DNA of 53,648 bases, taken from an uncultured Pseudomonadota bacterium. Its GTDB lineage: Bacteria; Pseudomonadota; Alphaproteobacteria; RF32; CAG-239. Within the stretch, counting starts at the first letter, position 1. The number at the start of each line of letters is the position of its first letter. The stretch covers positions 1-53,648 of the forward strand of contig CASFUZ010000008.1 in NCBI GenBank assembly GCA_949298065.1. Reading direction: 5' to 3'. The translations under genes and the position numbers were made by a program. This document shows, piece by piece, positions 25,770 through 39,929 of the stretch. The notes below the pieces were generated by a model, which saw only the letters and a program-made list of their open reading frames with translations, was not told the origin of the DNA and searched no databases.

Positions 25770-26795
25770 ATGAAACTTAAATTCGTTTTTTGTTGTTTTT
25801 TGTCTTTAACTTTTGCTTCAGAGGCTTTAGCTGCAGCTGATGCCGGTTTGCGTTATATGCAGACCAGAGGCGTGGTTCGTTGCGGAACGGATTTGTCTGC
25901 GCAAACCTATGCTTACAAAGATGAAAACGGTTATTGGCGCGGAATTGATGCGGATTTGTGCCGCGTGTTGGCTTTGGCCGTGCTCGGCGACAAAGAACGT
26001 ATTGAAATGGTTAATGTTCCAAACAACTTGGTTTCAAAATATCTGGCAACCAACAAAATTGACATTATGCTCGGCGGGGCTTCTTACTCTGCTAGCAATG
26101 AAATTAAATCTCAAGCTGTCCCTGTTGATATTGTTTATTATGACAAACAGTCGTTCCTTGCAAAAAATGCTGACCAAGCAACCTCTATGGAAGACTACAA
26201 AGGACAGAAGGTTTGTGTCGTTACTGATTCTGATGATTTTTATAATTTGGAAGAATATAATGCAAAATATAATCTTAATCTTAAAATTCTTCCTTTTGCC
26301 AGCACTCAACGCGCTAAAGAAGCTTTTTTACTTAATCGCTGCCCGCTATTGACCGGAAATGTTTTATTCTTGCAAAACATCTTAAAATCAGCAGGCGTTA
26401 AAGATACTACAACTCAGGTCTTACCTGAAATTATTAGCGTTAAACCCGTTTATGCCTTTACGCATAAAGAAAATAATTCTTGGCGTATCTCCGTAAAATG
26501 GATTTTTAATGCTCTCAAACTTGCCGAGAATCTGGGAATCAACTCAATAAATAGTGATATCTTTATTGGCGCTCAGGATGTTTCTACAAAAAATCTGCTC
26601 GGCGTTAACCCTGATTTGTGGAACAAGTTTAAGGTTCATAATCCGCAATGGCTTCGTCAAGAGCTTAAAGAGCTCGGAAATTATGGCGAAATCTATGAAA
26701 GAAACTTGGGAAAAGAATCTGTCTTCAAACTTGAAAGAGAGCAAAATAAACTTATAAACGATGGCGGCTTGATTATTCCGCAGCCATTTTTATAA
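25770..26795 (+). CDS. Periplasmic amino-acid ABC transporter binding protein (AapJ-like)
   Basis: 341 aa from the ATG at 25770, with a signal peptide ending near EALAAA. Type II solute-binding fold of the SBP_bac_3 family: the VVRCGTD opening after the signal, GYWRGIDADLCRVLALAVLG, and YKGQKVCVVTDSD marking the second lobe. The length and the WRISVKWIFNAL segment resemble the general L-amino-acid binding protein AapJ. No permease or ATPase gene adjoins it. The last 23 nt overlap the convergent esterase gene. Confidence 0.85.
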   Translation: MKLKFVFCCFLSLTFASEALAAADAGLRYMQTRGVVRCGTDLSAQTYAYKDENGYWRGIDADLCRVLALAVLGDKERIEMVNVPNNLVSKYLATNKIDIMLGGASYSASNEIKSQAVPVDIVYYDKQSFLAKNADQATSMEDYKGQKVCVVTDSDDFYNLEEYNAKYNLNLKILPFASTQRAKEAFLLNRCPLLTGNVLFLQNILKSAGVKDTTTQVLPEIISVKPVYAFTHKENNSWRISVKWIFNALKLAENLGINSINSDIFIGAQDVSTKNLLGVNPDLWNKFKVHNPQWLRQELKELGNYGEIYERNLGKESVFKLEREQNKLINDGGLIIPQPFL

Positions 26796-27486
26796 ACTTT
26801 GCTTTCAGATATTTTGCTGCCGTATCCAACGCATCTTCCGTGACACGATGACGACCGCCTTTTATGACATAAGTTTCTACCGCACAACCCATTTTTTGCA
26901 AATTTTGTTTGGAGAAATCCAGCGCCTCAAAGCGTACCAAATTATCTTCATCCCCATGTATGAGCAACATATCCGGTGAACTTTGGGCATGCTTTAGCAA
27001 AAATTTTGCCGGCGCGACAATACCGCTGAAGCTTATACAGCCACCGATTTTGTTCGCCCTCATCAAAGAGATATAAATTGCCAACATTGCGCCTTGCGAA
27101 AAACCGCAAAGGTATAAATCCTTATCATCCAACTGATATTCGTTCAGGCAGTTATCAATATATGGATTAACATACTCAAAAGCTTCCCTAAAACCCGGGG
27201 CCATCTTTTCATAAAAAGCAACGCATTCTTTCAATGTCGGAACGGTCTTTCGGTCATCATTGGGGTCAAAGCGGTGCATGGAATACCACTGCCTTTTGTT
27301 GGGGTGTATCTCGCACAAAAAAGGCGACTGCGGCACATGTACGGCAACATCGTCTAGCTTATCTATCAACGGTGTTATGGTTTTATCTATGACCTCTGAC
27401 GAATCTATATAGCCATGCAAAAACACGACCAACCGCTTGGGATGACCCTTAACGTGTACGATTTCCTCTGTGATTAAATCCGGCAA
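26773..27486 (-). CDS. Alpha/beta hydrolase, phospholipase/carboxylesterase family
   Basis: 237 aa from a TTG with AAGG upstream; no better start is visible. Predicted cytoplasmic serine esterase of the YpfH type: VVFLHGYIDSSE (oxyanion loop), nucleophile Ser in CGFSQGAMLA, Asp in LLIHGDEDNLV and His in GGRHRVTEDA complete the triad. It is convergent with the binding-protein gene and the two coding ends overlap. Substrate unknown. Confidence 0.88.
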   Translation of the reverse strand: MPDLITEEIVHVKGHPKRLVVFLHGYIDSSEVIDKTITPLIDKLDDVAVHVPQSPFLCEIHPNKRQWYSMHRFDPNDDRKTVPTLKECVAFYEKMAPGFREAFEYVNPYIDNCLNEYQLDDKDLYLCGFSQGAMLAIYISLMRANKIGGCISFSGIVAPAKFLLKHAQSSPDMLLIHGDEDNLVRFEALDFSKQNLQKMGCAVETYVIKGGRHRVTEDALDTAAKYLKAKFIKMAAE

Positions 27487-27552: not shown

Positions 27553-27593
27553 AAAAAAAATTATATCCCCCGAAGTTTGACTTCGGGGGATAT
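27553..27593 (-). terminator. Terminator of the podovirus-type cluster
   Basis: 13-bp perfect stem (27563-27575 with 27581-27593) with loop TTTGA, followed on the minus strand by AATTTTTTTTT. It lies 3 nt after the last phage-type gene. Confidence 0.9.
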
Positions 27594-27596
27594 TTA

Positions 27597-27791
27597 TCAG
27601 AACTTGGGATATTTTTCTTTAATATCTTGCCATCTTTCAATAACATCTATCAACTCGTAAGGTAAATCGCCGCCTTCTTGCAAAACCATATCAAAAGCTT
27701 TCAAAATTGCATCCAATTGGTCTCCAAACGGCAAAGCTTTTTCATAAGCTCTGCAACGCTTTTCCTGATAGCTGAGCTTTCTTCTTGGCAT
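27597..27791 (-). CDS. Small phage-type hypothetical protein, 64 aa
   Basis: Last gene of the phage-type operon. Basic start (MPRRKLSYQEKRCRAYEK), then PFGDQLDAILKAFDMVLQ and ELIDVIERWQDIKEKYP. Short proteins with a P-GDQLDA-LKA core and a W-IK-KYP end are common near tail genes of alphaproteobacterial phages, where some are called tail assembly or hypothetical proteins. Function not known. It follows the Ala/Gly-rich protein by 10 nt and precedes the terminator. Confidence 0.7.
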   Translation of the reverse strand: MPRRKLSYQEKRCRAYEKALPFGDQLDAILKAFDMVLQEGGDLPYELIDVIERWQDIKEKYPKF

Positions 27792-27801
27792 TTCCTCCTC
27801 C

Positions 27802-28320
27802 TTACTTTAATACTTTATTGGCAATGGATAAACCTTTATCCAAAAGATTTTTACGATATTGGTTTTGGGTATTGTTGTATTCTTCTTGCTGAGACATGAA
27901 TGCGACGTTATCTCTCTCAATATCATCAAAAGCTTCATCAATAAGCCGATTATTGGCTGCATCTGCCGAAGCGGAAGATGATATACCCATACTGGACATG
28001 CGCGCGTGTCTTGTGGCAAGTTGTTGTTCTAATATATTCTTCTTTCTCTGCATATTTAAATACTGCAACAGAAATGCGTTTTTTTCTTGCCTTTTGGCCG
28101 AACTTTTAGAATCAAAAATGCTTTTTATATCACTTGCCATACCAAGTGAACCTAATAATGATTTTAATGATAATCCTCCTCCTGCTTGAGATGCTACTTT
28201 TGATGCTGCTAATCCGGCTCCGGCACTTGCTAGTCCTGCCCCTGCTGAACCTGCTCCTGCTCCGGCTGCTCCCGCAGAACCTGCTGCCCCTGCTGCTGCC
28301 GCTGCTGATAATCCTCCCAT
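27802..28320 (-). CDS. Putative virion-internal protein with Ala/Gly-rich N-terminus
   Basis: 172 aa. Residues 1-48 consist almost only of Ala, Gly and Ser (MGGLSAAAAAGAAGSAG and onward), the rest is polar and helical (RQEKNAFLLQYLNMQRKKN, LIDEAFDDIERDNVAF). Size, position after the gp12-like gene and a small-residue apolar segment followed by helices resemble T7 gp14-type ejection proteins that enter the host envelope. No sequence identity to gp14 is claimed. The larger T7 internal proteins gp15 and gp16 have no counterpart here. Confidence 0.6.
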   Translation of the reverse strand: MGGLSAAAAAGAAGSAGAAGAGAGSAGAGLASAGAGLAASKVASQAGGGLSLKSLLGSLGMASDIKSIFDSKSSAKRQEKNAFLLQYLNMQRKKNILEQQLATRHARMSSMGISSSASADAANNRLIDEAFDDIERDNVAFMSQQEEYNNTQNQYRKNLLDKGLSIANKVLK

Positions 28321-28337
28321 ATTTTTTCTCCTTTCAT

Positions 28338-30239
28338 TTATCCTTTTATTTTTACCTCTAATACCGCTGACAATAGGGTAAATGCCAACGGTTCATCTGA
28401 CTTGATACTCCAAAGTGGTTTGTCCATCTCTCTTATCCAACCTAATGCTCTTAAATGGACATCTCCGCTGTATAAACTTGGTGGTGCATCCAATATCTCA
28501 TCTTTGAATAGTCTTTTTAACGGTACTTGAAGATAACCGCTTCCCATATCTATACAAAAACTTCGCGAGTTTATGATTCGGAAAAGTCCACTAATAACCC
28601 TTAAGGCTTGCGGTGAATATGGTCTGACAGCATCCGCAACATAGGGCAACGGCTCTATGATGTGTTCATAAGACAAGCCAACAACCAAATCTGAAGCTTC
28701 CTCCAATAAATCTATGCTGCCATCTTCAACCTTGTATTTTCCGACACTAAAGTCATCTGCCAGAACAGAAATTTCACATCCGTCCAAATCTTCCAGACCT
28801 GACCACAACTTTTTCGGCATTTCCGAATGAAGTTTGATGGCGCAATCGGCATAAAATTCATCGCTCATCTTTTCAATGAAATATCCATTCTTTCTTGATG
28901 TACAAAAATAAACCTCATTACCCATTACGGCTACTGATAAAAATTTTCCTTCCGTCTTCAGTTTGCTCCACGCTGTCACTTCTTCCGTGCGATAACTGGT
29001 TAAACATGATACTGTCCCATCTGCCAATACAATATATAAAACACTCTCATCCCGACTAAAATCATTGTCTACAGGCATATTTAATATATCTCCTGACATT
29101 AAGGTTAGATCTTTTGACTGGTAGGCCTGTTCCGTATCCGTATATAAAAACTCTCGTAATTGCCTTCCACTTTGTGATACAAATACCGTAGCTCCATCAA
29201 TCTGTTGCGGATATATACTGCACTTGTCATAACTTCCCGTACTGGTTTGACGACTGAGCTGAATACTGGTCGGAGTCAACGGATTGCCGCTAACCATCCA
29301 CTCCGCTCCGGTCGTAAAAACTAATAAATGTCTGGCTGATACCAGCGCTTTTATGGTGTTTACCTGATCTGATAATATGCCAAACTCTATCGCTTCATCA
29401 TCCAAACCTGTTCCAATATCAAAATTAAATAAATCTCCAGATTTGGAAAACCATAAGCGGTTCGGTAAGCTTTTAGAGCCGCCAAAGACTAGCCGATTTT
29501 GATGAAATGTTACAGAATTGGGCCAACCTCGCTGTGGCGAAAAGGCGGATTCCTCCCAATCATTCGTTGAACCTGTGGATGATAAACCTTTAGTTACGTT
29601 AGCTTGTACACTTGTGGCACTAACATATTTACTTATTTTTGCTTGACCTCCACGAACATTAATCAAACTTCCGACCGAAGCTGCGGTAAATATTTCTGAA
29701 GGTGATGATATGGTAATCGTTCCACTCATTCCACTTGGAGATATATATACCTTATGATTATAATAATTATAAAATGGACAATAAATTCGGCCGTCTTTTG
29801 TATAATATTCCATCTTTGAGATTTGCCAATCTTCATTATTACCGCGCGTGATTTGTTGCGGCGCGACATCCGGATGGACGACCAATAAGGTATCCGCACT
29901 TTGCGTATAATTTAATGAATTCAGCTGTTCCTCTGTCCAAGGAGAACTTAACGTCTTGATGCAAACACCATCACTGTAAATACGAATTTCTCCTTCGCTT
30001 ATGGCTACTAAGTAAGTTTGCTCTGTATTAAACTCAAACGGAATTAGTCTTGCAGGTTTGCTCAGTTTATCTACTTTTGCCAAGCCTTTGCGTCTTGATA
30101 CACCCCCGGTTGGGTGGATAATGACATTTTCTAACGTCCGAGCACCATTTTCAAATATGCTCAAATCACCTCGTCCATATAAATTTCGCCCGATATATCC
30201 GGCTGTGAAATTTGTTTTGACCTGAAGCATATTACTCAT
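28338..30239 (-). CDS. Tail tubular protein B-like (T7 gp12-like)
   Basis: 633 aa. The start KTNFTAGYIGRNLYGRGDLS followed by ARTLENVIIHPTGGVSRRKG is the typical opening of podovirus gp12-type tail nozzle proteins. The body is beta-rich with propeller-like repeats: SVTFHQNRLVFGG, LWFSKSGDLFNFDIG, LLVFTTGAEWMVSG and VFVSQSGRQLREF. It would form the distal nozzle of a short tail. It overlaps the gp11-like gene by 4 nt (translational coupling). The frame is intact over 1.9 kb, which argues against decay. Confidence 0.85.
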   Translation of the reverse strand: MSNMLQVKTNFTAGYIGRNLYGRGDLSIFENGARTLENVIIHPTGGVSRRKGLAKVDKLSKPARLIPFEFNTEQTYLVAISEGEIRIYSDGVCIKTLSSPWTEEQLNSLNYTQSADTLLVVHPDVAPQQITRGNNEDWQISKMEYYTKDGRIYCPFYNYYNHKVYISPSGMSGTITISSPSEIFTAASVGSLINVRGGQAKISKYVSATSVQANVTKGLSSTGSTNDWEESAFSPQRGWPNSVTFHQNRLVFGGSKSLPNRLWFSKSGDLFNFDIGTGLDDEAIEFGILSDQVNTIKALVSARHLLVFTTGAEWMVSGNPLTPTSIQLSRQTSTGSYDKCSIYPQQIDGATVFVSQSGRQLREFLYTDTEQAYQSKDLTLMSGDILNMPVDNDFSRDESVLYIVLADGTVSCLTSYRTEEVTAWSKLKTEGKFLSVAVMGNEVYFCTSRKNGYFIEKMSDEFYADCAIKLHSEMPKKLWSGLEDLDGCEISVLADDFSVGKYKVEDGSIDLLEEASDLVVGLSYEHIIEPLPYVADAVRPYSPQALRVISGLFRIINSRSFCIDMGSGYLQVPLKRLFKDEILDAPPSLYSGDVHLRALGWIREMDKPLWSIKSDEPLAFTLLSAVLEVKIKG

Positions 30240-30805
30240 TGTCTGGCCTCCACAAGCGTGAAGTCTTCAAATCGTTTGGGCGTTGATTGTTGCGCATCAA
30301 TCAATCGTGTTCTTTTTTCCAGCTCCTCAAAGGTTTTTTGCAGATATTCCGAACGTGTCGTACTTTCGGTTAACGGTAGGCAAAATTCTGAAGCCAATCT
30401 TGCTATCAACAACTCACAAAAATATGCCGGAAACAAGCTCTCATGCGGCCGAAAAATATATGTCAGATTAACTTCCGGAACATTTGTATGCAGGCGGTTT
30501 TCAACTATACGATATTCTATGCCTCTGCCGTTTCTTCCGCTTCCTGCCGATAAAACCCGCAAGAAATCATTCGGCAACTGATATGCATAACTATAATCCG
30601 CCAAAGGAACTCCGGCCAAACGCGGCAAAGACTTTTGCCCAACTGCAAAACTCCAAGGATATGAGGCTAATAAACCATCTCTTATCATCGGGTATAAATT
30701 TGCGGCAACTTCCGCCTCCGCTGTTCCGTCCAGAAAAGATGTTATGCTTTCTGCGCCGATTTTTAATAAAGCATTTGAACAAATGCTGATGTCGGTATAA
30801 GCCAT
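30236..30805 (-). CDS. Tail tubular protein A-like (T7 gp11-like)
   Basis: 189 aa from the ATG at 30805 (GGAG 7 nt upstream). The N-terminus AYTDISICSNALLKIGAESI and the helix-rich first 60 residues with YPWSFAV are characteristic of gp11-type gatekeeper proteins that dock a podovirus tail to the portal. YQLPNDFLRVL and the C-terminal helices (ELLIARLASEFCLPLTES) also fit. Between the 88-aa protein gene and the gp12-like gene. Confidence 0.85.
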   Translation of the reverse strand: MAYTDISICSNALLKIGAESITSFLDGTAEAEVAANLYPMIRDGLLASYPWSFAVGQKSLPRLAGVPLADYSYAYQLPNDFLRVLSAGSGRNGRGIEYRIVENRLHTNVPEVNLTYIFRPHESLFPAYFCELLIARLASEFCLPLTESTTRSEYLQKTFEELEKRTRLIDAQQSTPKRFEDFTLVEARQ

Positions 30806-30891
30806 TTTGTTTCTCCATTTAAAATGGGAAGCCGCTTTCACGCGACTTCCCGGTTATCATTTGCTAATAATGCGCTTGTTTTTTTATAAAC

Positions 30892-31158
30892 CTAAGCTGC
30901 TGCCTGAGGTTGAGATATTGTGTCTGCAACCGTTACAGAACCTGCGGCAATATCCGTTACACTTAAAATTGCCGGCGCAACAGCTGCCGCATTATTGGCT
31001 ACGACCAAAATCATATCTCCCTTGCGCGCAAAAGCCGAAACATCATTAAAATAGCCCTCTCCTTTGACGCTTTCCAAAGTATCGGGGGTTTGATAGTTCC
31101 AAAGTGTAAAACCGTTTGCATAGGCCATTACGCTAAAGTTTTTTGAATTAAATGCCAT
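30892..31158 (-). CDS. Phage-type structural hypothetical protein, 88 aa
   Basis: MAFNSKNFSVMAYANGFTLW followed by a GYFNDVSAFARKGDMILVVA core and an Ala/Val-rich beta-type end. Short proteins with this MA-YANGFTLW opening are found next to capsid genes in podovirus-like prophages and are likely minor capsid or decoration proteins. AAAGGAATAAAACA precedes the ATG. It is directly after the capsid gene. Confidence 0.7.
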   Translation of the reverse strand: MAFNSKNFSVMAYANGFTLWNYQTPDTLESVKGEGYFNDVSAFARKGDMILVVANNAAAVAPAILSVTDIAAGSVTVADTISQPQAAA

Positions 31159-31181
31159 TGTTTTATTCCTTTCTTATTCTA

Positions 31182-32012
31182 CTAAATTGAAGCTTCTTTG
31201 CATTTGATGCGGATGACACCCGTGCCATCAATCAGGCAAGCACCTTGGCTCATCATATTATTAACGAAGTGTGCCGCATGGTCGCCATGCCAGCTGATGT
31301 CTGACTTTACTTCCTGACCGCAAGCATGGCCAACTGCCGTTTTGTGGAAAATGAAGCAATCGCGATTAGTGCCATTAAGCGGCAAACCTGTGTGCATAAT
31401 CCAGTTAATGCCCAACCATTTGCGGCTTTCCGTACCCTTCAAGAACGGCAAGTTATCTCCGGCATAATCCGAATTTGAAAATTCCTGAATATTGAGCAAA
31501 GCATTCCACTGATACGGACCAACCAAGCCAAAACGCTGACCATCATCCGGAACATCATTTTCATTCAGCTTGGCAAAAGCATCCAAAATTTCTTTTTTGG
31601 TCATGACCTCGGCATAATCACCGACATCATTTTCCGGACCAACCTGAGCCAAAGCATTGATAATCAGTTCATCTGTCTTGCGGCCCAAGGCATAAGCACC
31701 GGAGTTGGCAATAACTCGGCGCTCATCAATGCTCAATTTGAGCTCGTCCAAAGCATCTACCCAATCGCCTGCATAGTAATCCTGCAACTCGCATTCAACG
31801 GGAGAATGATCCAAGCTCATTACCGGAACCAAACCATGGCGCGCTTTTTGAGAAGCAATACCCTTACCAACCTTCTGGAATACGGTTGAAGAGCCCTTAA
31901 CACCATTTTTATAACGAACGGTGTTTCTCAGCTTAGAACCGTTTTGCTGATAACAAAGGTGAACATCTGCTTCAAATTGTTTGATAAAAGATTCACTTAC
32001 TTGTGTTGACAT
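31182..32012 (-). CDS. Putative major capsid protein
   Basis: 276 aa. Position (after a scaffold-like gene, before tail tube genes), length and features fit a podovirus HK97-fold capsid of the BPP-1-like type: an N-terminal FIKQFEADVHLCYQQ segment, RHGLVPVMSLDHSPVECELQ, DYYAGDWVDALDELKL, ERRVIANSGAYALGRKTDEL, and a sheet-rich end with NWIMHTGLPL and CFIFHKTAVGHACG. GGAGAAAAAATA gives a strong ribosome-binding site, as expected for the most abundant structural protein. Confidence 0.82.
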   Translation of the reverse strand: MSTQVSESFIKQFEADVHLCYQQNGSKLRNTVRYKNGVKGSSTVFQKVGKGIASQKARHGLVPVMSLDHSPVECELQDYYAGDWVDALDELKLSIDERRVIANSGAYALGRKTDELIINALAQVGPENDVGDYAEVMTKKEILDAFAKLNENDVPDDGQRFGLVGPYQWNALLNIQEFSNSDYAGDNLPFLKGTESRKWLGINWIMHTGLPLNGTNRDCFIFHKTAVGHACGQEVKSDISWHGDHAAHFVNNMMSQGACLIDGTGVIRIKCKEASI

Positions 32013-32072
32013 TATTTTTTCTCCATAAAATTAAAAAAAAGATTTTGTTTTGATTAAAAAAATCCTGAGGTT

Positions 32073-32768
32073 TTATTTCTCAGGATAAAGTTTTTCAAAG
32101 CCTTTGGTGATTTTGGCGATATAAGCTTTGTCTTTGTCTCGCCAATAGCGCGGGTCTTCCATCATCTTACGCAAATTTTCCTCGCTTAAGTCCTCTCCAA
32201 AATCTCTGTCTTTGCCCAAAGACGGCTCATTTGAAGACATCATCTTATACAAGGCAATAACGCCATCCGCGGTTGAGCCCAAAGCCTCATAAACATCGGT
32301 TTGCAAGTTTCTTTTTGCCCAAACGGAAATCTGACGGCAGACTTCGCTAAATTTTTCCTCAGAGCCGAAATAGCGTTTGAGCCTGTCTATCTGTCTTTCC
32401 GCTTCATAATCGGAGGCTAGACTATCCAACACGGGAATAACACGCTCATTGGCTAAATCATAAACCAACTGTGCCTGCTCGTTCGTAAAGCCTTTTTCAT
32501 AAAAACGCTTGAAAATTTCATCATCTCTGTCAAGCAACGGATGTGGAAAATTAACCTCATATTTATCATAACTTTCCGGCATATTGCGATTATGAATCTC
32601 AACCAGATTATCATCGCGCGAAGCCATATAATTATAGTCTTCAATCAATGCCTCAAGGTTTACCTGACCGGTTTCTTCATTCCAGAATTTGTCTGGAAGT
32701 CCGGCCGGTTTGCCTGTCTGGGCGGAAGGTGATTTTTCAATCAGATTTCCTTCAAATTTTTTGTTCAT
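32073..32768 (-). CDS. Putative capsid scaffolding protein
   Basis: 231 aa from the ATG at 32768 (AAAGGA upstream). Charged, helical and acidic, with a disordered N-terminus and KGFTNEQAQLVYDLANERVI in the middle, a pattern common to phage capsid-assembly/scaffold proteins encoded just before the major capsid gene. No catalytic motif is visible. A long 5' space (60 nt) separates it from the capsid gene. Function is from position and composition. Confidence 0.7.
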   Translation of the reverse strand: MNKKFEGNLIEKSPSAQTGKPAGLPDKFWNEETGQVNLEALIEDYNYMASRDDNLVEIHNRNMPESYDKYEVNFPHPLLDRDDEIFKRFYEKGFTNEQAQLVYDLANERVIPVLDSLASDYEAERQIDRLKRYFGSEEKFSEVCRQISVWAKRNLQTDVYEALGSTADGVIALYKMMSSNEPSLGKDRDFGEDLSEENLRKMMEDPRYWRDKDKAYIAKITKGFEKLYPEK

Positions 32769-32795
32769 TATTTTTCCTTTCAAAAAAAGAAGTTG

Positions 32796-33020
32796 TTAAA
32801 ATTTATTACACGAAAACGCCAAAATGCAACTTACTAAATGCCGCTGACCTTCCAGATGTCTTAGTTCATCGGAAGAACTGTCCGGCCCGAGATAGCGCTC
32901 TAGGGTAATTTTTCTTAAATGAGAGAGAACTATCTTTCCCTCTCTGCTTGCAAAACACCTGACATAAGCGTTTCGGATTTCCTCCTCACTCATATCCTTG
33001 GTATCATAAAACTCCGGCAT
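32796..33020 (-). CDS. Bbp19-like phage protein
   Basis: 74 aa. The pattern NAYVRCFASREGKIVLSHLR, TLERYLGP and LEGQRHLVSCILAF resembles the small Bbp19 family named from Bordetella podophage BPP-1, encoded beside portal and terminase genes. Molecular role unknown. Its start overlaps the 3' end of the portal gene by 17 nt, so the two are translationally coupled. Confidence 0.6.
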   Translation of the reverse strand: MPEFYDTKDMSEEEIRNAYVRCFASREGKIVLSHLRKITLERYLGPDSSSDELRHLEGQRHLVSCILAFSCNKF

Positions 33021-34563
33021 CTTGTGTTGCCTCCCCCGTTATGGCTGACGCAAGCTCTGCCAAACCTGTATCAGTCGCCGGTTTTTCCTCAACAATCAAA
33101 GAGGCCGGAACATTCAGGGTATGTCCGAGCCACTTGGCGGCTTCAAACATATTTACGGCGGCTTGACCATCTGCGCCAAGCATTGCCGCCTGAGTTATCC
33201 ATTCGGTTACGTTGCTGACATCTTTTCTGGCTTGAGACATTGCCAAAGGAGATTTGTATTGTAAGTCAACAATTTTGCCGTCTAAATCAAAGTTCATAAC
33301 ATCGCCGCGTCTTCTCAAAATGCAAAAAGCTCTTTTAAGCAGCGGCGTTAGAAGTTCTGACTGTAAACGTCCGAAGCTTGCACCCAAGATGCGGGCTATC
33401 TCTGCCGAACGCTCCAAGACTTCGGTGGCGGTCATAGACGGCGTGTTAATCTCTGCCAGTCTGTCTGCCAACAAAGCATGGTTGATCCTTTTGCGCAAAT
33501 CTTCCAGCACGAGCTGCGAAACATCAAACTTTCCGGGGGCTTCCAATGCCGTTAAGCCCTTTGAACCAACAGCTTTCGGAATAATGGCTCCCGGAACCAA
33601 TTTGATGTTGGCCGGATTGAGAACGCCATCATCATCTGCCTGCCAAATGCCCGTTACAGAAATAGAAGCATTTTTCAAAATGAGCTCTACCACTTTGTTT
33701 GCGGTCTTGATATCCGGCAAAGCTTTCATCACCGGCGAACGCCCATAAATCTCTCCGGGGGCTTTCAACCAACGAAAATTGATAAAAGGTGATGTCTCAA
33801 AGACACCCTCCCTTAAGATAAAGCCGGAATTAAAACCAACATCGCTATCCCAGATAAATGCCGTATAATCATAACCGCAAGCGCCGCAATTGCCGTTACG
33901 CGGTGTTACAGCCTCTATCAAGCGAACTTTATAATCCGGCTCATCCTCGCTTTTCTTTAAGAAATCCGCGGGGACTTCGCTTTCCGGAAAACGCTCTCGG
34001 ATACCGCCCAAATTGATGCGTGAGCATCTGAATGTTGTGTCAATTTTTCCGGACGCACTTTCTTCAATGGCTATTTCTCTCAAGGGTACGGCATAAAACC
34101 GAAACGCAGAAGCCTCGCCCAAAGGCGCTTCCTCAAACATTAAGCAAGCCGTGCCTGCCGTTACCAAATCCAGATAGCATTGGTGAATTTCTACCGCGAA
34201 ATTTGAGTGCTCAAAATTTTGGAGCATAATATCCGTGGTTTTTTCCAAAACAGGCGCTACTTGTGTTTTTTCCGTTTCCGTCAATTCGCTGCCGGATTTC
34301 AGACCAAACCATTTTGCCCAGGCCGGCGTAAGTTCCGCCAGCAAAGATGAAGCCAACTGGTCCACCGCGTCCGGTGCCGTGCCGTCATATAAGTGCAAAT
34401 TGTTTTTGGCACCATAATTTTCAGACAAGCCTTCCGAGCTGACATTTTCTCGCTGCGGAAAAGCATATTCATAGCACTCTCGCCAATGTTCTTCCCAGTT
34501 GCTTTTTTTCTCAGAGGCTTTTTGGTAACGAGCCACCAATTTTTCTAGTTTGTCGTTTTCCAT
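33004..34563 (-). CDS. Portal (head-to-tail connecting) protein, podovirus type
   Basis: 519 aa, the size of T7 gp8-type portals. Typical opening LVARYQKASEKKSNWEEHWR with YAFPQRENV, then LYDGTAPDAVDQLASSLLAE and LTPAWAKWFGL, and the later GEIYGRSPVMKALPDIKTAN and TATEVLERSAEIARILGASF. All are landmarks of the head-tail connector family. It forms the dodecameric gate for DNA packaging and ejection. Flanked by a 63-aa gene upstream and the Bbp19-like gene downstream. Confidence 0.92.
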   Translation of the reverse strand: MENDKLEKLVARYQKASEKKSNWEEHWRECYEYAFPQRENVSSEGLSENYGAKNNLHLYDGTAPDAVDQLASSLLAELTPAWAKWFGLKSGSELTETEKTQVAPVLEKTTDIMLQNFEHSNFAVEIHQCYLDLVTAGTACLMFEEAPLGEASAFRFYAVPLREIAIEESASGKIDTTFRCSRINLGGIRERFPESEVPADFLKKSEDEPDYKVRLIEAVTPRNGNCGACGYDYTAFIWDSDVGFNSGFILREGVFETSPFINFRWLKAPGEIYGRSPVMKALPDIKTANKVVELILKNASISVTGIWQADDDGVLNPANIKLVPGAIIPKAVGSKGLTALEAPGKFDVSQLVLEDLRKRINHALLADRLAEINTPSMTATEVLERSAEIARILGASFGRLQSELLTPLLKRAFCILRRRGDVMNFDLDGKIVDLQYKSPLAMSQARKDVSNVTEWITQAAMLGADGQAAVNMFEAAKWLGHTLNVPASLIVEEKPATDTGLAELASAITGEATQDAGVL

Positions 34564-34565
34564 TT

Positions 34566-34757
34566 TTATTCTCCAAGAAGTTTTTTGCGTTCTGTCGGTT
34601 TTTTCTCATTATTTTCTTCTTCCTTGATGCCGGTATAAGAAGTTTTGACTAAGCTGTCATAACCGCGATGTTTGCGCGCAAGCTCTTCTTTCCTTTTGCG
34701 GTCTTGCTCTATCATTTGCAAAATAAGAAGTTTACGAGACGGTTTAAATCCTCCCAT
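34566..34757 (-). CDS. Small phage-type hypothetical protein, 63 aa
   Basis: Highly charged, Lys/Glu-rich helix (LILQMIEQDRKRKEELARKH) with a disordered Lys-rich tail. No family recognised. Located 2 nt before the portal gene with a good ribosome-binding site (AAAGGAACA), so it is probably translated. Confidence 0.6.
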   Translation of the reverse strand: MGGFKPSRKLLILQMIEQDRKRKEELARKHRGYDSLVKTSYTGIKEEENNEKKPTERKKLLGE

Positions 34758-34783
34758 TTTTTGTTCCTTTCATAAAGTTTGAG

Positions 34784-35101
34784 TTATTTTTTTGTTTGCT
34801 TTTTCGGTCTTGCCGAAGATGGTGAATTATCGCTTTTAACAAAAGCAATACCCAAAACACCTAATGCTACGCCCCATAAAGGCGAAGTTTCCACCATAGC
34901 CATAATAATTTCGGAGGCATCAGGATTGCCGCTGATTACCGCCCAACAGATTGTGCTCATAACCATAAACCAAGCTATGGATACCGACCAACCAAAAGCC
35001 GATTGCCAAAGCGGTTTGTTTTTTCTTCCGCTAAAGCTCTTATGGCTTAATCCCCCTATGAGCTTGAACGGAAAAGAAATGCCATTTATCAGTTTGTTCA
35101 T
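34784..35101 (-). CDS. Holin-like membrane protein
   Basis: 105 aa with a basic N-terminus, two predicted membrane helices (GWSVSIAWFMVMSTICWAVI and PLWGVALGVLGIAFV) and a basic tail. RKNKPLWQSAFGW resembles the R-RP-W opening of small holins found next to endolysins in alphaproteobacterial phages and gene transfer agents. It would open the inner membrane for lysin release. It directly follows the cell-wall hydrolase gene (2 nt). Confidence 0.75.
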   Translation of the reverse strand: MNKLINGISFPFKLIGGLSHKSFSGRKNKPLWQSAFGWSVSIAWFMVMSTICWAVISGNPDASEIIMAMVETSPLWGVALGVLGIAFVKSDNSPSSARPKKQTKK

Positions 35102-35103
35102 GG

Positions 35104-35520
35104 TTATGCCTCAATATCGTTATAAAAAATATGACTGCCGATTTCCGCACAAGGAATTTTGCCGACCGACCATTTTGGGCGCAAATTTCTGGTGTGATAA
35201 TGCGTGGCTCCGCCTGTTTGATCTTCAAGCAAACCGGAAACTGCCCGCAAAGCTATTCTTTTGCAAATGCAAAAGCCAATGTCTGAATCATCAACTTTCT
35301 TTATGATTTTTCTGTTTGGGTCATCTGCGTTCCAGCAAGAAAACTGCTTGGGTGCCAGACATACATCAGCTATGCTATTGCCCCACCAATAACGCCCCTT
35401 CTTTTTGGCAAATGCAACGCGGTTTAAAACAACAGAGGCGATTGCCTCCTGTCCGGAAATGCTCTCGCCTCTTGCTTCGCCGTAAATGGTTCGGGCTAAA
35501 ATATCTGCCTCCTTATTCAT
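35104..35520 (-). CDS. Cell wall hydrolase, SleB family (endolysin)
   Basis: 138 aa. ILARTIYGEARGESISGQEA carries the catalytic Glu (E15) of the SleB/Hydrolase_2 fold; IASVVLNRV, VCLAPKQFSCWN and the TGGATHYHTRNLRPKW end complete the family. It cleaves peptidoglycan, probably as a lytic transglycosylase, and needs the neighbouring holin-like protein since no signal peptide is present. Its start overlaps the upstream gene by 4 nt. Confidence 0.92.
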   Translation of the reverse strand: MNKEADILARTIYGEARGESISGQEAIASVVLNRVAFAKKKGRYWWGNSIADVCLAPKQFSCWNADDPNRKIIKKVDDSDIGFCICKRIALRAVSGLLEDQTGGATHYHTRNLRPKWSVGKIPCAEIGSHIFYNDIEA

Positions 35521-35774
35521 CTTTTGCTTCTCCCCACATTATCCAGTTTCTTTTCTATGCGCAGGAGATGGTCAGTAATGCGGTTTTCAACATCTTTGAG
35601 ATAATTTACCGATACATAATTGCGGGCAACATGCAGCTTGAACTCTGCCAAAGCATCCTTGCAAAAGCTGATTGAGTTTTCACAATCCTTCTTTTGCTTG
35701 AAGATGATTTTGAATAAGGCTGCCAACAGCGGAATCTCAATCATCGTTACCCAATTAAAGGTATCTAAAAACAT
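35517..35774 (-). CDS. Small membrane-anchored coiled-coil phage protein
   Basis: 85 aa: an N-terminal apolar helix (TMIEIPLLAALFKIIF) followed by a charged helix ending with the coiled coil VNYLKDVENRITDHLLRIEKKLD. This form is common in phage lysis cassettes. A spanin-like role is possible but unproven, as there is no lipobox. Overlaps the hydrolase gene by 4 nt and follows the large terminase gene by 12 nt. Confidence 0.65.
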   Translation of the reverse strand: MFLDTFNWVTMIEIPLLAALFKIIFKQKKDCENSISFCKDALAEFKLHVARNYVSVNYLKDVENRITDHLLRIEKKLDNVGRSKR

Positions 35775-35786
35775 GGTTGTTTCTCC

Positions 35787-37274
35787 TTATAAAGTAAAAT
35801 TCGTTTCTGCCGAAAATTGTTTTGAGTTTCCTTGCCACTTGGCTGCTGACAAAGGTGTGTTGGCAATGGTTGAACCTATGCGTATGGGCTCTGAAGCCAA
35901 GCAACCAGCCACCGCATCCAAGGCATCATCATGCGAGGTTCCGTCAACACTCCATTCGCGCATTTCCTCAATAAACGGCGTTTGCCAAATTTTGCGATGA
36001 ACATGGAGCGCGCGTTCCGCCAATAAAACCTCAAAGGCCTCTAAAATTCGTTGCTGTTTGTTGTCTTTAGAGTATGCCTCCAGAACAGCCGCGCGAATCC
36101 TCCGTTCTTTCAAAACTTGCTTTAAAATCCCCGGCAAAAATCTGCCGATGCCGTTTACCTCAACCCGAACAGATGATAAGTGATTGCGCACCAAAAAATC
36201 CGCAACTTTGCTGCATTGTAACGTGGCCGCATTATCCGCATTCTCTGAAGGGACGCGTATATACTCCATATCATGCAGCCAAAACTTGCCGTCTTCATCG
36301 CTAAAGACACAAGCAATGACGCTATTGTCCCCCTTCTCTTTTGCCGCAAAGGACGGGTCCCACCAGCAAGAGGCTGAAAGCATCCTTTTACCGCCGATTT
36401 TTAATATCTCACGTTCGTTGGCAAAAGTTATCTCTATCTCTCCGTCATAAACACAAAGTCTTTCCGGAGATAATGTGCTGTCCCTGAAGTTTACGGGTTG
36501 CAACATCATCTGCGAAAGAAATTTATTTTCGCCGGAACGAATCCTTATGGCGGCAATTTTTTCTTCCGAAAATCTTTCCGGCCAAGCGCTTTTTCCTTCT
36601 GCATTGAGAATCGGCAACAACAGCTTGGTGAACCCTTGCAAAAAAGGCTCTGTATCCGGCTTCTTGGGGTCTGCTTCCGTCTGATAAATCGTATAATAAG
36701 TATGTGGTGTTCCGATATAAAGCTGCATGCCGTTCGGCGTTAGAATATAATCAAGTTCGTTTAACTTCTCTCTTAGTTCCTGACGCTTGAGTGGCGTATC
36801 GCAATTTTTGGGAACCTCCACATCATCACAAATTATCAAGTCTGCACGCAAACCCGTAATGTTCGCCCCCAAGCCTTTTGCCAACATTGACGGATCGCGA
36901 AGCTCCAAAGCGCGGCAAACCGTAAATTGGTCTGATGCCCATTGGTCCAAACGCGGCGGTTTAAGCCCCTTGGTCAGCGGATGTTGCTCTATAATTCTTT
37001 TCACGTTTCGCACCATTTTTTTTGCTAAAGCATGATCTGCCGCCATAACCAAAATTCTGATTGACGGATTGGTGTATAAAACCCAAGCGCAAAATAGACC
37101 GACAATGGTTGACTTGCCGGAGTTTCTGAACGCCATCAGCAATGCTTGACGGTCACCCTCTTTGTGCCACAAAGAAGACAACCACTTAGACATCTTCTTT
37201 TGATGTTTGGGAACTCTTAGACCCTGCAATCTGAACCAGACATACACAAACTCAAAAAAATTAATCTTCATCAT
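35787..37274 (-). CDS. Phage terminase large subunit
   Basis: 495 aa. ATPase half: Walker A-like MAFRNSGKSTIVG, Walker B LRADLIICDDVEVP, and a LYIGTPHTYYTIY motif after it. Nuclease half: first acidic residue in SCWWDPSFAAKEKGDNSVIA and a terminal acidic pair in SHDDALDAVAG, giving an RNase H-type metal site. The complete set of motifs argues for an active packaging motor. It resembles the T7 gp19/BPP-1 branch by layout. Overlaps the small-terminase candidate by 14 nt. Confidence 0.93.
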   Translation of the reverse strand: MMKINFFEFVYVWFRLQGLRVPKHQKKMSKWLSSLWHKEGDRQALLMAFRNSGKSTIVGLFCAWVLYTNPSIRILVMAADHALAKKMVRNVKRIIEQHPLTKGLKPPRLDQWASDQFTVCRALELRDPSMLAKGLGANITGLRADLIICDDVEVPKNCDTPLKRQELREKLNELDYILTPNGMQLYIGTPHTYYTIYQTEADPKKPDTEPFLQGFTKLLLPILNAEGKSAWPERFSEEKIAAIRIRSGENKFLSQMMLQPVNFRDSTLSPERLCVYDGEIEITFANEREILKIGGKRMLSASCWWDPSFAAKEKGDNSVIACVFSDEDGKFWLHDMEYIRVPSENADNAATLQCSKVADFLVRNHLSSVRVEVNGIGRFLPGILKQVLKERRIRAAVLEAYSKDNKQQRILEAFEVLLAERALHVHRKIWQTPFIEEMREWSVDGTSHDDALDAVAGCLASEPIRIGSTIANTPLSAAKWQGNSKQFSAETNFTL

Positions 37275-37572
37275 CTGAACTCAGTTCGTTTTGCGCTTCC
37301 TGCAAAAACGACATTAGTTGTTTGTTTTCGTTTTGAGGCTCCGAATCGGTATCTTTGCTATCCGTCCACTCGGCAAGTTTGAGGAGAGTTTCGGCATGTA
37401 CAACTGCCGACTTGCAAGCGGAATGATGTGCGCTGAAACCTTTGGCATCTTCCGGAACGGGTTGCTCCGAAAAATTTTCATAGCTGTCTATGACCTCAGA
37501 AATTTTTTCGGGCAGCGTTTTGCGAAGTCTGCTTTTCAGAGCCTTTAGCGTTTTTATTTTTTTTGTTGTCAT
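37261..37572 (-). CDS. Putative terminase small subunit
   Basis: 103 aa, basic N-terminal half (TLKALKSRLRKTLPEKI) and acidic C-terminal tail (NELSSDDED). The central GFSAHHSACKSAVVHAETLL helix pair is the best conserved-looking part. Identified mainly by position immediately before, and overlapping, the large terminase. The small subunit would choose packaging start sites, so it is the key gene for asking whether packaging is sequence-specific or random. First gene after the leader terminator at 37590-37616. Confidence 0.6.
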   Translation of the reverse strand: MTTKKIKTLKALKSRLRKTLPEKISEVIDSYENFSEQPVPEDAKGFSAHHSACKSAVVHAETLLKLAEWTDSKDTDSEPQNENKQLMSFLQEAQNELSSDDED

Positions 37573-37589
37573 TCTGATTAAACCCCATA

Positions 37590-37616
37590 AAAAAAAGACC
37601 TCGCATCAGGAGGTCT
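37590..37616 (-). terminator. Leader terminator in front of the packaging/structural operon
   Basis: Stem AGACCTC/GAGGTCT (37596-37602 with 37610-37616), followed on the minus strand by an uninterrupted T-run. It ends only about 18 nt before the ATG of the small-terminase candidate, leaving no room for a promoter downstream of it. Confidence 0.8.
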
Positions 37617-37668
37617 GTTTTTCATTGCTCAGTTTATTTTAGATACACTACTAGCAAGTGATGTTTAG

Positions 37669-37697
37669 GGTGTAACATAAAAAAAATCATTTGTCAA
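37669..37697 (-). promoter_or_regulatory. Possible promoter of the packaging operon leader
   Basis: Minus strand perfect -35 TTGACA (37692-37697, overlapping the stop codon of the gene at 37694), 17-bp spacer, weak -10 TACACC. An inverted repeat CACT-ACTAGCA-AGTG (37646-37660) lies just downstream. Confidence 0.4.
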
Positions 37698-38083
37698 GAG
37701 TTTTTTCCTACAACTTTTAATTTTTTATACAACTGATACGGCGTGATGATGCTTGCCGAATGAATCCCTAAAACTCTCTTTACCAGCTCCACACAAGTAA
37801 AAAAGCCCAAAGGGGCACATTTTTGCGGTGCATTTTTTATTTTTACACAACAAGCCAAATTCTCTCCCCTAATCCGCAATATATCTTCTATGCTTTGTGC
37901 CTTAGAGAATCTATGCAAGCTTATAACTACTTGATTGGAATAAGGGTTTATCTCTAACCACTTGCGCCCGTTTTGCATTGAAAACAAAAGATAACAATGC
38001 CTAAAACCTGATTTTAGAAACCTTAGCCACCATAAACCTGTTGTATTTGTAAAAACAACATAAGCCTTTGTATTTTCGTTCAT
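37694..38083 (-). CDS. Hypothetical protein with conserved-looking His and Cys, 129 aa
   Basis: From the ATG at 38083 (AAGGA upstream); an in-frame extension to 38176 overlaps the previous gene and is rejected. NENTKAYVVFTNTTGLWWLR, then GFRHCYLLFSMQNGRKWLEI and APLGFFTCVELVKRVLGIHS. The order His (in GFRHC) before Cys (in FTCVE) is reminiscent of permuted NlpC/P60-type papain folds, but this is only a suggestion. Function unknown. It lies between the divergent repressor region and the leader terminator and is probably the second gene of the early leftward transcript. Confidence 0.7.
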   Translation of the reverse strand: MNENTKAYVVFTNTTGLWWLRFLKSGFRHCYLLFSMQNGRKWLEINPYSNQVVISLHRFSKAQSIEDILRIRGENLACCVKIKNAPQKCAPLGFFTCVELVKRVLGIHSASIITPYQLYKKLKVVGKNS

Positions 38084-38084
38084 T

Positions 38085-38414
38085 CTATATAATTCCTTTT
38101 GCCTGCAGGTAGAGACCAAAAATATAAATTCCGTTTTCCCAAAGTCTGGTTTCGCTTGGTTTGGCGCGCTTGTCATAATAAGGCGGCGTGCCTATTCGCC
38201 CCCAACGAAACATCACGCGCAGACAGCGATTGTTAACTTCACTTTTGGCGCGCATTCTTTTCAATATCCTCTCAACATCACCTATCTCCAAGCATCTTAT
38301 TTTTCCGGAATAATCACATCTTGAGCGCAGGCCTTCCCCTCTGGCCTCTAAAGACTGACAAAACCAAAACCATACTTCTTCGGCATTATCAAACGGCTCA
38401 TAATCTTCCCTCAT
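38085..38414 (-). CDS. Hypothetical protein, 109 aa
   Basis: DNAEEVWFWFCQSLEARGEG at the start, basic centre (VERILKRMRAKSEVNNRCLR), RWGRIGTPPYYDKR and a Trp-containing end. No family named. The basic centre could bind nucleic acid. Ribosome-binding site GGGGAGAG. First gene of the leftward transcript from the promoter at 38464-38491, 1 nt before the gene at 37694. Confidence 0.7.
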   Translation of the reverse strand: MREDYEPFDNAEEVWFWFCQSLEARGEGLRSRCDYSGKIRCLEIGDVERILKRMRAKSEVNNRCLRVMFRWGRIGTPPYYDKRAKPSETRLWENGIYIFGLYLQAKGII

Positions 38415-38434
38415 ATTTTAGTCTCTCCCCAATT

Positions 38435-38491
38435 ACAACTTAACTAAATGTTAACTTTTAAAAGTTATATATAAAGTTGTAGGAATTTCAA
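38435..38491. promoter_or_regulatory. Leftward promoter with palindromic operator
   Basis: Minus strand TTGAAA (38486-38491), 16-bp spacer, TATAAC (38464-38469). A perfect 16-bp palindrome TAACTTTTAAAAGTTA (38452-38467) covers the -10, and an outer inverted pair ACAACTT/AAGTTGT (38435-38441 and 38474-38480) brackets it. Likely repressor site for the divergent gene. Confidence 0.6.
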
Positions 38492-38504
38492 CATAAAAAA
38501 AGAT

Positions 38505-38533
38505 TTGATTCCTAACATAAAATGTCTTATAAT
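38505..38533 (+). promoter_or_regulatory. Rightward promoter of the repressor-like gene
   Basis: TTGATT (38505-38510), 17-bp spacer, perfect TATAAT (38528-38533), about 40 nt before the ATG at 38573. Confidence 0.7.
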
Positions 38534-38572: not shown

Positions 38573-39193
38573 ATGAAATATGAACAAGTTTGGGAAGCTG
38601 TTGATAAGTTAGCCAAAATTAACGGACTTTCTCCATCCGGACTGGCCAAAAAAGCCGGACTTGATTCTACAACCTTTAATAAAAGCAAACGCACGCGTCC
38701 GGATGGTAAAAAAAGATGGCCATCGCTTGATAGCCTAAACAAAATCATTGATGTCTGCAATATCAGCTTTGATGAGTTTTTTGCCCTTGTCTCAGATGAT
38801 GAGGAGGACAAACTCACACACTCCATTCCCTATGTTTCCTATTCTGACCTTTGTGATGGACGTATCTCTATCTCAGCTGATTTTTCAAATAATAACTGGC
38901 AAAAAATCCAGTTTCCGGATGGCAAAGATAATTTATATGCACTTGATTTGAACACTGATAATTTTGCTCCCGTTTATCGTGAGAGAACTCTTTTAATCTT
39001 ATCTCAGGCATCCGAAATCAGAGGCGGAGATCGCGTTGTCGTCTTTATGAAAAATAATGAGATTGTTGTTGCCGAATTTATCCGCCGTACTGCCACAACC
39101 CTTGAAACAAAAGAGATTATCGGCAAAGAAAAACTTTCAATCAATATTGATGATGTTCACCTTGTTCATCGGATTGTTTGGGCCAGCCAATAA
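38573..39193 (+). CDS. HTH regulator with S24/LexA-like C-terminal domain lacking the catalytic dyad
   Basis: 206 aa. Residues 1-70 form an HTH (KINGLSPSGLAKKAGLDSTT, then FNKSKRTRPDGKKRWPSLDS) very like the HTH of chromosomal S24 regulators of alphaproteobacteria. Residues 115-200 align with the S24 peptidase fold (YALDLN, APVYRERTLLILS, RGGDRVVVFMKNNEIVVAEF). The GDSM Ser box reads TDNF (Asn130) and the Lys position is Ala167, so autocleavage should be lost. It is divergent from the phage-type leftward genes and sits next to the palindromic operator, so it is the likely repressor of the cluster. Followed after 12 nt by a 76-aa gene. Confidence 0.85.
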   Translation: MKYEQVWEAVDKLAKINGLSPSGLAKKAGLDSTTFNKSKRTRPDGKKRWPSLDSLNKIIDVCNISFDEFFALVSDDEEDKLTHSIPYVSYSDLCDGRISISADFSNNNWQKIQFPDGKDNLYALDLNTDNFAPVYRERTLLILSQASEIRGGDRVVVFMKNNEIVVAEFIRRTATTLETKEIIGKEKLSINIDDVHLVHRIVWASQ

Positions 39194-39205: not shown

Positions 39206-39436
39206 ATGAATCTGCATAAATTTTATTTACAACAAAATTCTAGTACACTTGATGAAACCGAAAAGAAATTTGATTTTATCCCTGATGTGACTAATCAGGC
39301 GGTAGCCAAGTCTTTGGATAAAATCTGCCGGATTAAAATGGAAGAAATTTCTGATTTGCGCAATGCAAAAACTGATACTTCTCTTTCCGAAAAAAGGCTT
39401 AGAGAATACAGAGATTATGCCATAAAAAATTTATAG
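39206..39436 (+). CDS. Hypothetical protein, 76 aa
   Basis: Polar and helical with mixed charge (FIPDVTNQAVAKSLDKICRI); no motif recognised. It has an AAAGGA ribosome-binding site and is cotranscribed with the regulator. Its 3' end meets the convergent HAD gene with a 1-base gap and no visible terminator. Confidence 0.65.
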   Translation: MNLHKFYLQQNSSTLDETEKKFDFIPDVTNQAVAKSLDKICRIKMEEISDLRNAKTDTSLSEKRLREYRDYAIKNL

Positions 39437-39437
39437 C

Positions 39438-39929
39438 CTATTTTTCTCTTTGTTCTTTGATAAATGCTTCAATATTGTTTAAGGTTTGCTCAGGCGAATG
39501 TTTGAAGTTTATATGCCAACGGTCCTCTATCTGACATTGTTTGTTTTCTCCGTCATAATAGCAAAAAGGCGTGCTGAAGCCTTCGCTGTAAGATAAAGAA
39601 TCGTCTATGTGCAAATCTATATGATGTTCCGTGCAATAGGTTGCTTTGGCGGAATTCCACAGCTCATCGTCAACCTTAAATTCGCCATTGTCAAAAAACT
39701 CTACACAGCCTTTGGCATCATAATAATCTAAAATGGCAAAAATCGTTGTGTAAGGAATTTGCCATTTTTTGAGATATTCTTCTATCGTAGCCTTAGGTCC
39801 GCCGCTGATAATATATATCTCCATTCCTCTTTTTAAGGCTTCCGCGGCAAAATCTTTGAAATATGACGGATTATCGGTTATAACTCCGTGAAAATCCAAT
39901 CCTATTCTTATTTTAGCGGATTCTGACAT
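39438..39929 (-). CDS. HAD-superfamily hydrolase
   Basis: 163 aa from the third of three clustered ATGs (39929), 8 nt after GGAG. Motif I IGLDFHGVITDNP with the Asp nucleophile, motif II IYIISGGP, and the later acidic LHIDDSLSYSEG. The short cap and length resemble small phosphatases of the deoxy-5'-nucleotidase/NIF type; substrate unknown. It overlaps the end of the giant AsmA-like gene by 17 nt, in an operon running from prfB through the hydrolase and AsmA-like genes. Confidence 0.8.
   Translation of the reverse strand: MSESAKIRIGLDFHGVITDNPSYFKDFAAEALKRGMEIYIISGGPKATIEEYLKKWQIPYTTIFAILDYYDAKGCVEFFDNGEFKVDDELWNSAKATYCTEHHIDLHIDDSLSYSEGFSTPFCYYDGENKQCQIEDRWHINFKHSPEQTLNNIEAFIKEQREK

Follow-up and report, generated by a model that had tools for sequence, protein, structure and literature searches.

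Gene transfer agents (GTAs) pass random host DNA from one cell to another. The present analysis concerns a candidate system of this kind in an uncultured alphaproteobacterium of the CAG-239 family. It is a T7-like head, packaging, tail and lysis operon on one strand, accompanied by a divergent repressor-like gene, at positions 27,563-38,454 of a stretch of 53,648 nucleotides (GenBank assembly GCA_949298065.1, contig CASFUZ010000008.1; the whole stretch is referred to as the window). The window is contig 8 of a source genome of 1.62 Mb in 36 contigs. The relatives of this genome are metagenome-assembled Alphaproteobacteria, some labelled as gut samples, and among records with an organism name 'Azospirillum sp. 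CAG:239' (L104, portal identity 85%) is the nearest.

The classified alphaproteobacterial GTA families are the RcGTA type and the BaGTA type (PMC9662315). RcGTA production depends on CtrA (PMC3999984), and Kogay 2019 recorded RcGTA-like clusters in 0 of 24 Rhodospirillales and 0 of 13 Azospirillales genomes (PMC6821227); the cluster described here occurs in both orders. FpGTA, from Faecalibacterium, is encoded by a 10.5-kb operon of TerS, TerL, portal, scaffold and capsid genes, is described as most likely podovirus-like, and packages short random host DNA of 8.4-8.9 kb (PMC12946183). Particles released by Azospirillum lipoferum contain random 10-kb host DNA; the genes behind them are only guessed, and the authors point to another, RcGTA-like prophage region (PMC3899980). 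No description of a podovirus-type GTA in Alphaproteobacteria was found in the literature searched, in agreement with the novelty claimed in the first-pass annotation of the window.

The locus combines tailed-phage genes for head, packaging and tail with host co-evolution, purifying selection and the absence of a self-mobilisation module from the cluster. Particles carrying host DNA are likely because the gene set is open and conserved, no integrase was found beside it, and its tree closely matches that of the bacteria. Judged from the genes alone, the probability that the cluster works as a GTA is about 0.72. The podovirus-derived GTA that the first-pass annotation proposed fares better than its rivals.

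Vertical inheritance, selection and distribution

Host and cluster phylogenies were compared in 30 genomes, comprising four of the CAG-239 family and 26 of 30 chosen Rhodospirillales-type genomes (four were dropped, RpoB being absent or fragmentary). The Mantel correlation between RpoB and nine concatenated cluster proteins was 0.923, and 0.836 for the 26 genomes left without the CAG-239 family. Neither value was reached in any of 2,000 permutations, whose maxima were 0.43 and 0.46, respectively. The two trees have 22 of 27 splits in common, with one marker on the host side, and one starred split of the cluster tree conflicts with a host split of 91/87 support. Within the source genus, the protein trees agree except for the four closest genomes, in which the cluster pairs the source genome (G000) with G001 and RpoB groups G001, G004 and G005. 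A codon-position DNA tree groups G002, G003 and G006, unlike the protein trees, and the deeper nodes of the family tree are without resolution. This congruence across orders is stronger support than the earlier annotation had.

The ratio of non-synonymous to synonymous substitution rates (dN/dS) was estimated by the Nei-Gojobori method in 8 related pairs, with many dS values saturated and some not computable. It was 0.01-0.04 for capsid, 0.01-0.06 for portal, 0.02-0.09 for TerL and at most 0.15 for most other genes, with upper values of 0.24 (Bbp19-like), 0.26 (second gene) and 0.35 (holin-like, the top of the set). The host flanks gave 0.00-0.18, and the cluster genes are similar; the anticipated dN/dS below 1 was therefore observed, capsid, portal and TerL included. 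Chance is excluded as the source of the gene set because the set is conserved in 20 related-family loci over the length that each contig covers, and dN/dS lies far below 1. These loci are the top 20 among 80 retained out of 484 encoding relatives. Both domestication and vertical inheritance have very strong support.

Such results bear on the explanation that the locus is a cryptic prophage, now decaying after a recent loss of its integrase and replication module. All of its genes are phage-derived, its presence in the CAG-239 family is patchy, and in 5 of 45 Azospirillum-genus genomes the portal is split, all of which would fit decay. Set against this are the mostly very low dN/dS, the full gene order kept in related loci, the host-congruent tree across orders, the co-inheritance of an unlinked fibre gene and the lack of an internal stop in the four of the flagged capsid or portal copies that were examined. 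The selection and congruence tests have already gone far to refute the decaying prophage, which is the least probable of the explanations considered.

The portal is present in single copy in all seven source-genus genomes (84-100% identity) and in four further family genomes among 38 relatives (72-78%). Capsid was found in 22 of 112 CAG-239-family genomes, all at least 90% complete, with one marginal match. Homologous clusters occur across Rhodospirillales-type bacteria. A class-wide sample of 387 genomes yielded some portal match in 109, among them 46 genomes with a portal of at least 49% identity over at least 80% of its length, and three more with one in pieces. GTA_TIM (PF13547), an RcGTA marker, was detected in 40 of the 387 genomes and in none of the 46 portal carriers (hypergeometric 0.005, phylogeny ignored), while G165 and G285 hold GTA_TIM together with a distant portal.

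All 45 Azospirillum-genus genomes have the portal, which is in two pieces in five of them, with an integrase element in the one examined. At L272 (G564:C102:26000-45500, same genus), an element of about 15.7 kb that opens with a P4-type integrase interrupts the portal near codon 305, and the matched portal halves overlap by about 9 codons; a portal gene that has been domesticated may act as an attachment site. Genome searches flagged in-frame stops, one in two capsid matches, and also in several Azospirillum portal matches. They were rejected as a sign of decay: the flags in the four copies examined (G424, G446, G529, G562) are probably the terminal codon, since the aligned protein of these four contains no in-frame stop.

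Several more distant records were also noted. Two family genomes hold portals of 24-25% identity and a T7 fibre-type match each (G009:C25:1650-3035, G010:C3:35859-37124), perhaps unrelated podovirus prophages. Genomes of about 0.9 Mb within the class-wide sample (L276, L279, L295; G259, G386; families f60, f138) have portals at 44-49%, and in G259 capsid, TerL, gp11, gp12, fibre-like and lysin genes lie within one 17-kb stretch. An unverified human-faecal 'Bacteriophage sp.' clone (L180, MT838907.1, 5,084 bases; portal 74%, capsid 80%) may be a fragment of a related bacterium. The portals of the IMG/VR 'viral contig' L023 and of Caenispirillum salinarum (L127) are identical. Databases may list such cellular clusters as viruses, and surveys may therefore miscount them.

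The chromosomal position is largely stable. Gene order is kept in the 20 family loci as far as contigs reach. Of the 16 loci that extend far enough upstream, 15 have a HAD-like gene there (the exception, L105, has other open reading frames, ORFs), and an esterase lies downstream in 17 of 18 (the exception, L116, has other genes). Both host neighbours are kept in 13 of 20 loci, and in G006; most of the other contigs end first. An extra ORF stands beside the HAD-like gene in L103 and L111, and in G018 the cluster retains YhdP as its sole usual neighbour, with the esterase about 90 kb away. The conserved position proposed as a check thus holds at both flanks in 13 loci, with exceptions in L105, L116 and G018.

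An integrase was sought with phmmer, using as queries the integrase ORFs from three loci of the source genome and one P4-type integrase. None was found in the 20 family loci or in 60 Rhodospirillales-type loci, and 2 of 80 IMG/VR loci contained one. Profile searches recognised no replication gene in the cluster, the rest of the genome not having been screened. Both absences had been noted in the first-pass annotation. In the non-carrier G021 the two flanking genes lie 78 bp apart, a clean empty site, and the non-carrier G014 retains a regulator homologue (40%) beside the esterase, a deletion scar. Because of this empty site and the leftover regulator, the patchy presence in the family reads as loss rather than recent gain. 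The integrase that a temperate prophage would have beside its structural genes was found in none of the 20 family loci, and the empty G021 site is clean.

Another explanation is a satellite that depends on a helper, or a phage of very small size that still moves as a unit. The length of about 11 kb, under the 14 kb held by BaGTA particles (PMC9662315), would suit it, the site differs among some loci, and the cluster might package its own DNA. The failure to find an integrase, the clean 78-bp junction, a tree that tracks the hosts and a fibre gene elsewhere in the genome all argue in the other direction, and this explanation is highly improbable. As a separate observation, 12 of the 60 Rhodospirillales-type loci have a gene family of about 530 amino acids (aa) upstream of the portal (L123, L134, L143, L150, L152, L154, L157, L159, L161, L164, L168, L169), recognised in L161 as lysyl-tRNA synthetase; this suggests an older shared position.

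Gene content and packaging

The cluster comprises 17 open genes on the minus strand, running from 38,414 to 27,597. Their GC content (0.38-0.48) is similar to that of neighbouring genes, and relatives of solved structure (PDB) were found for TerL, capsid, portal and nozzle. In order of transcription, and followed by the neighbouring features, they are:

38085..38414, minus: operon gene 1, 109-aa predicted Q-like antiterminator (predicted fold, best match phage-21 Q antiterminator)
37694..38083, minus: gene 2, predicted permuted NlpC/P60-type cysteine peptidase or amidase
37261..37572, minus: small terminase candidate, 103 aa, overlapping TerL (by position only; phrog_31793 1.5e-46, function unassigned)
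35787..37274, minus: large terminase (TerL), T7 type (NCBIfam NF033889 1.8e-127; phrog_38; PDB terminases 8dgc, 4bij)
35517..35774, minus: membrane-anchored coiled-coil protein in a spanin/holin-like position (from sequence; phrog_29007 2e-41, function unassigned)
35104..35520, minus: SleB-type cell-wall hydrolase, endolysin (Hydrolase_2 PF07486 1e-20, full domain)
34784..35101, minus: holin-like membrane protein (from sequence; phrog_1544 weak, function unassigned)
34566..34757, minus: 63-aa conserved protein (in 17 of 20 related loci)
33004..34563, minus: portal, head-tail connector (Head-tail_con PF12236 9.5e-133; PDB portals including 8ck0, 6r21)
32796..33020, minus: Bbp19-like protein (PF25181 8e-14)
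32073..32783, minus: scaffold, T7 capsid assembly protein family (PF05396 1.6e-15)
31182..32012, minus: major capsid protein (Phage_capsid_2 PF19821 3e-75; PDB 9eg4 1e-28)
30892..31158, minus: 88-aa conserved protein 3' of the capsid gene (phrog_18004 1e-26)
30236..30841, minus: gp11-like tail tube protein (phrog_394 1e-50)
28338..30239, minus: gp12-like nozzle (phrog_376 2.9e-153; PF25675; PDB nozzle 8ck1 6e-56)
27802..28320, minus: 172-aa protein rich in Ala and Gly, standing where T7 has gp14 (by position only; 18 of 20 related loci)
27597..27791, minus: 64-aa last gene (in 15 of 20 related loci)
39206..39436, plus: 76-aa ORF beside the regulator (similar-sized ORFs in the same place in 13 related-family loci; no Pfam match)
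39438..39938, minus: host flank, HAD-like hydrolase, boundary outside the element (no Pfam match; weak phrog_13623)
26773..27486, minus: host flank, Abhydrolase_2 esterase, boundary outside the element

All genes listed in the first-pass annotation were recovered as open minus-strand frames, and profiles matched its TerL, SleB lysin, portal, Bbp19-like, scaffold, capsid, gp11-like and gp12-like proteins. One name had to be changed. The 109-aa first gene, there called the small terminase, found no convincing profile support for that role across 40 members, and its predicted fold points to phage-21 Q; the Z score is modest, and Foldseek alone gave no match at E <3. Its product is probably a Q-like antiterminator. 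The extent was also drawn too small, as the unit further holds a promoter, a divergent regulator and two sites resembling intrinsic terminators. In Magnetospirillum molischianum (L139, 12527-14037), the scaffold and capsid genes are separated by genes of the other strand for a metallo-beta-lactamase-fold (ODP) protein and a chemotaxis-signal-like protein.

The gene set bears on whether the particle would carry DNA at all. A tailocin was rejected, capsid and TerL being present and conserved. A domesticated particle with another purpose, namely killing, protein delivery or lysis for the benefit of the population, would make use of the retained lysis genes and tail. Terminase, portal, scaffold and capsid are, however, under purifying selection as strong as that on the tail genes, and a DNA-free particle would have no need of TerL. 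Such a particle is distinctly unlikely.

Two points weigh against a GTA. T7-type terminases normally cut site-specifically, and the cluster occurs in only 21 of 112 CAG-239-family genomes. Absence from relatives, which the earlier annotation had named as a refuting outcome, is not seen within the genus (7 of 7) and is the rule in the wider family.

Control of the operon and the unlinked tail fibre

The features relevant to control are:

38573..39193, plus: divergent helix-turn-helix (HTH) and S24 (LexA/cI-fold) regulator with autoprotease residues lost (PF00717 6e-5, just under the cut-off; PF13443 1.6e-4; phrog_4 repressor 1.8e-9)
38502..38514, minus: operator-like site TAGGAATCAAATC in the operon promoter, the sole match in the window at no more than one mismatch, common to the promoter of the unlinked tail fibre
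38440..38454, no strand assigned: CtrA-type box TTAA-N7-TTAA, palindromic (identically placed in all 17 related-family promoters)
37596..37616, minus: intrinsic terminator between the first two genes and the late genes, possible target of Q
27563..27593, minus: intrinsic terminator at the operon end, 14-bp stem and T8 tail

The box TTAA-N7-TTAA, which we take to be the CtrA consensus, stands at the same spot in all 17 CAG-239-family promoters, against 0.86 expected from letter shuffles, and in none of 51 Rhodospirillales-type promoters, which rules it out as an ancestral feature. It was also absent from the fibre promoters of the 11 loci examined. The regulators vary between the same groups. 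Among 47 of Rhodospirillales type, the S24 Ser and Lys are present in 46, and the Ala-Gly site retains its Ala in 46 and its Gly in all 47; among 17 of the CAG-239 family, neither the Ser nor the Ala of the Ala-Gly site is found, and the Lys is kept in 7. Control appears to have passed from a LexA-type repressor that cleaves itself, in Rhodospirillales, to a CtrA-type box in the CAG-239 family, with SOS-type induction likely in the former and CtrA-type control likely in the latter.

No ctrA lies within the window, and the rest of the source genome was not searched for it. The family carrier L116 has a CtrA equivalog at 18558-19247 (minus strand), about 1.9 kb downstream of the cluster (NF045991, 1.8e-120, 400.7 bits, cut-off 350), and L130 has a CtrA homologue (77%) at 1767-2441, in the same locus as the cluster. 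The regulator was rejected as a GTA-only gene, as homologues occur in genomes with RcGTA-type markers (G025, G026, G031); two non-carriers also have one, namely G014 and G020, the latter 59% complete and possibly a missed carrier. A T-tailed hairpin follows gene 2 in 17 of 17 related loci (no shuffle control) and would be the place where a Q-type antiterminator acts. Terminator-like sites in the scanned region numbered 22, against 13.7 expected.

The tail fibre that had been reported as missing is indeed outside the cluster but present in the genome, on another contig (G000:C14:43443-44462). All 11 carriers and none of the 9 non-carriers have a fibre-type N-terminus (phrog_1640; Fisher 6e-6), three of these nine being below 90% complete; G009 and G010, each with a distant portal and a fibre-like match, were left out of this table. 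In the four Rhodospirillales-type clusters examined, a fibre-type gene is placed after gp12. Of 17 operon promoters, 15 contain the operator-like motif TAGGAATMAAWTC exactly, one more has it with a mismatch and one lacks it; among 11 fibre loci, 8 have an exact copy. The remainder of the 385 kb of family loci holds eight one-mismatch and zero exact matches. These counts are descriptive, because the motif was defined post hoc from the same alignments. An initial pattern with a 10-26-base gap was discarded; of the 11 loci it picked up the fibre site in only one, and there through a different match. As the fibre locus has the same operator-like site, the two loci would switch on together.

From these features we infer that particles assemble and package random host DNA, that lysis and transfer follow, and that antitermination and CtrA govern the operon. 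The divergent HTH/S24 regulator and the CtrA-type box would act at the promoter, and the first transcript would encode the Q-like antiterminator and the peptidase before meeting the hairpin terminator. Once Q accumulated, polymerase would read through into the terminase, lysis, portal, scaffold, capsid and tail genes, ending at the terminator at 27,563. The cluster's own T7-type terminase would then fill the capsid with pieces of host DNA and lysis would release the particles, with the adsorption fibre supplied by the unlinked locus.

Relation to known phages and GTAs

The nearest complete phages listed are MEP301 and the HTVC010P/Hodr-type podoviruses of Pelagibacter, with portal identities of 32-34% and, for Hodr, a capsid identity of 43%. 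Their genomes of 34-35 kb are unlike the cluster of about 11 kb. In the portal tree the end branches of Hodr (1.22) and MEP301 (0.86) contrast with 0-0.66 for the core cellular and IMG/VR rows. Both phages may branch inside or beside the cellular clade, since the fork is open and long-branch joins are possible.

BaGTA (Bartogtaviriformidae) resembles the present system as a set of domesticated phage genes co-evolving with an alphaproteobacterial host (PMC9662315). Compared by description, the BaGTA of Bartonella has 29 genes that span about 79 kb close to a phage-derived origin, and an HK97-type capsid (PMC9662315). The cluster might package host DNA in the BaGTA manner, strongly favouring sequence near a local replication origin; no replication gene was recognised in the cluster, and such biased packaging is unlikely.

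RcGTA (Rhodogtaviriformidae) likewise is a vertically inherited head-tail cluster in Alphaproteobacteria (PMC9662315, PMC6821227, PMC7947584). The present cluster is unlike it in its podovirus portal, gp11 and gp12. Membership fails on the two features tested: GTA_TIM has no match in the source genome, and TerL is, by profile rather than by tree, of the T7 type (the NF033889 match above), whereas that of RcGTA belongs to a P22-like headful clade.

If the cluster is a GTA, orders without RcGTA-like clusters get a gene-transfer machine of their own, T7-type terminases are shown to be domesticable, and the Azospirillum particles reported in 2008 gain a gene-level candidate. The cluster is such a candidate for A. 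lipoferum, a species not identified by name among the 45 genus genomes. The LexA-type repressor that lost its protease residues while a CtrA-type box was gained would also offer a natural experiment in regulatory rewiring. The most complete proposal is a third alphaproteobacterial GTA family, podovirus-derived and ancestral to Rhodospirillales-type bacteria and gut RF32/CAG-239. It would fill the RcGTA-free orders, make the 10-kb Azospirillum particles, have switched its trigger from LexA-type to CtrA in the gut lineage, and have moved its fibre to a co-regulated second locus. Taken jointly, these parts stand at even odds.

In architecture, the level at which the two were compared, the closest system is FpGTA, which also pairs a main head operon with an unlinked fibre locus (PMC12946183). 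The lysis genes lie at the second locus in FpGTA (PMC12946183) and in the main operon here. FpGTA belongs to a Gram-positive host, and its particles and packaged DNA have been shown (PMC12946183), whereas the present alphaproteobacterial cluster is known from its genes.

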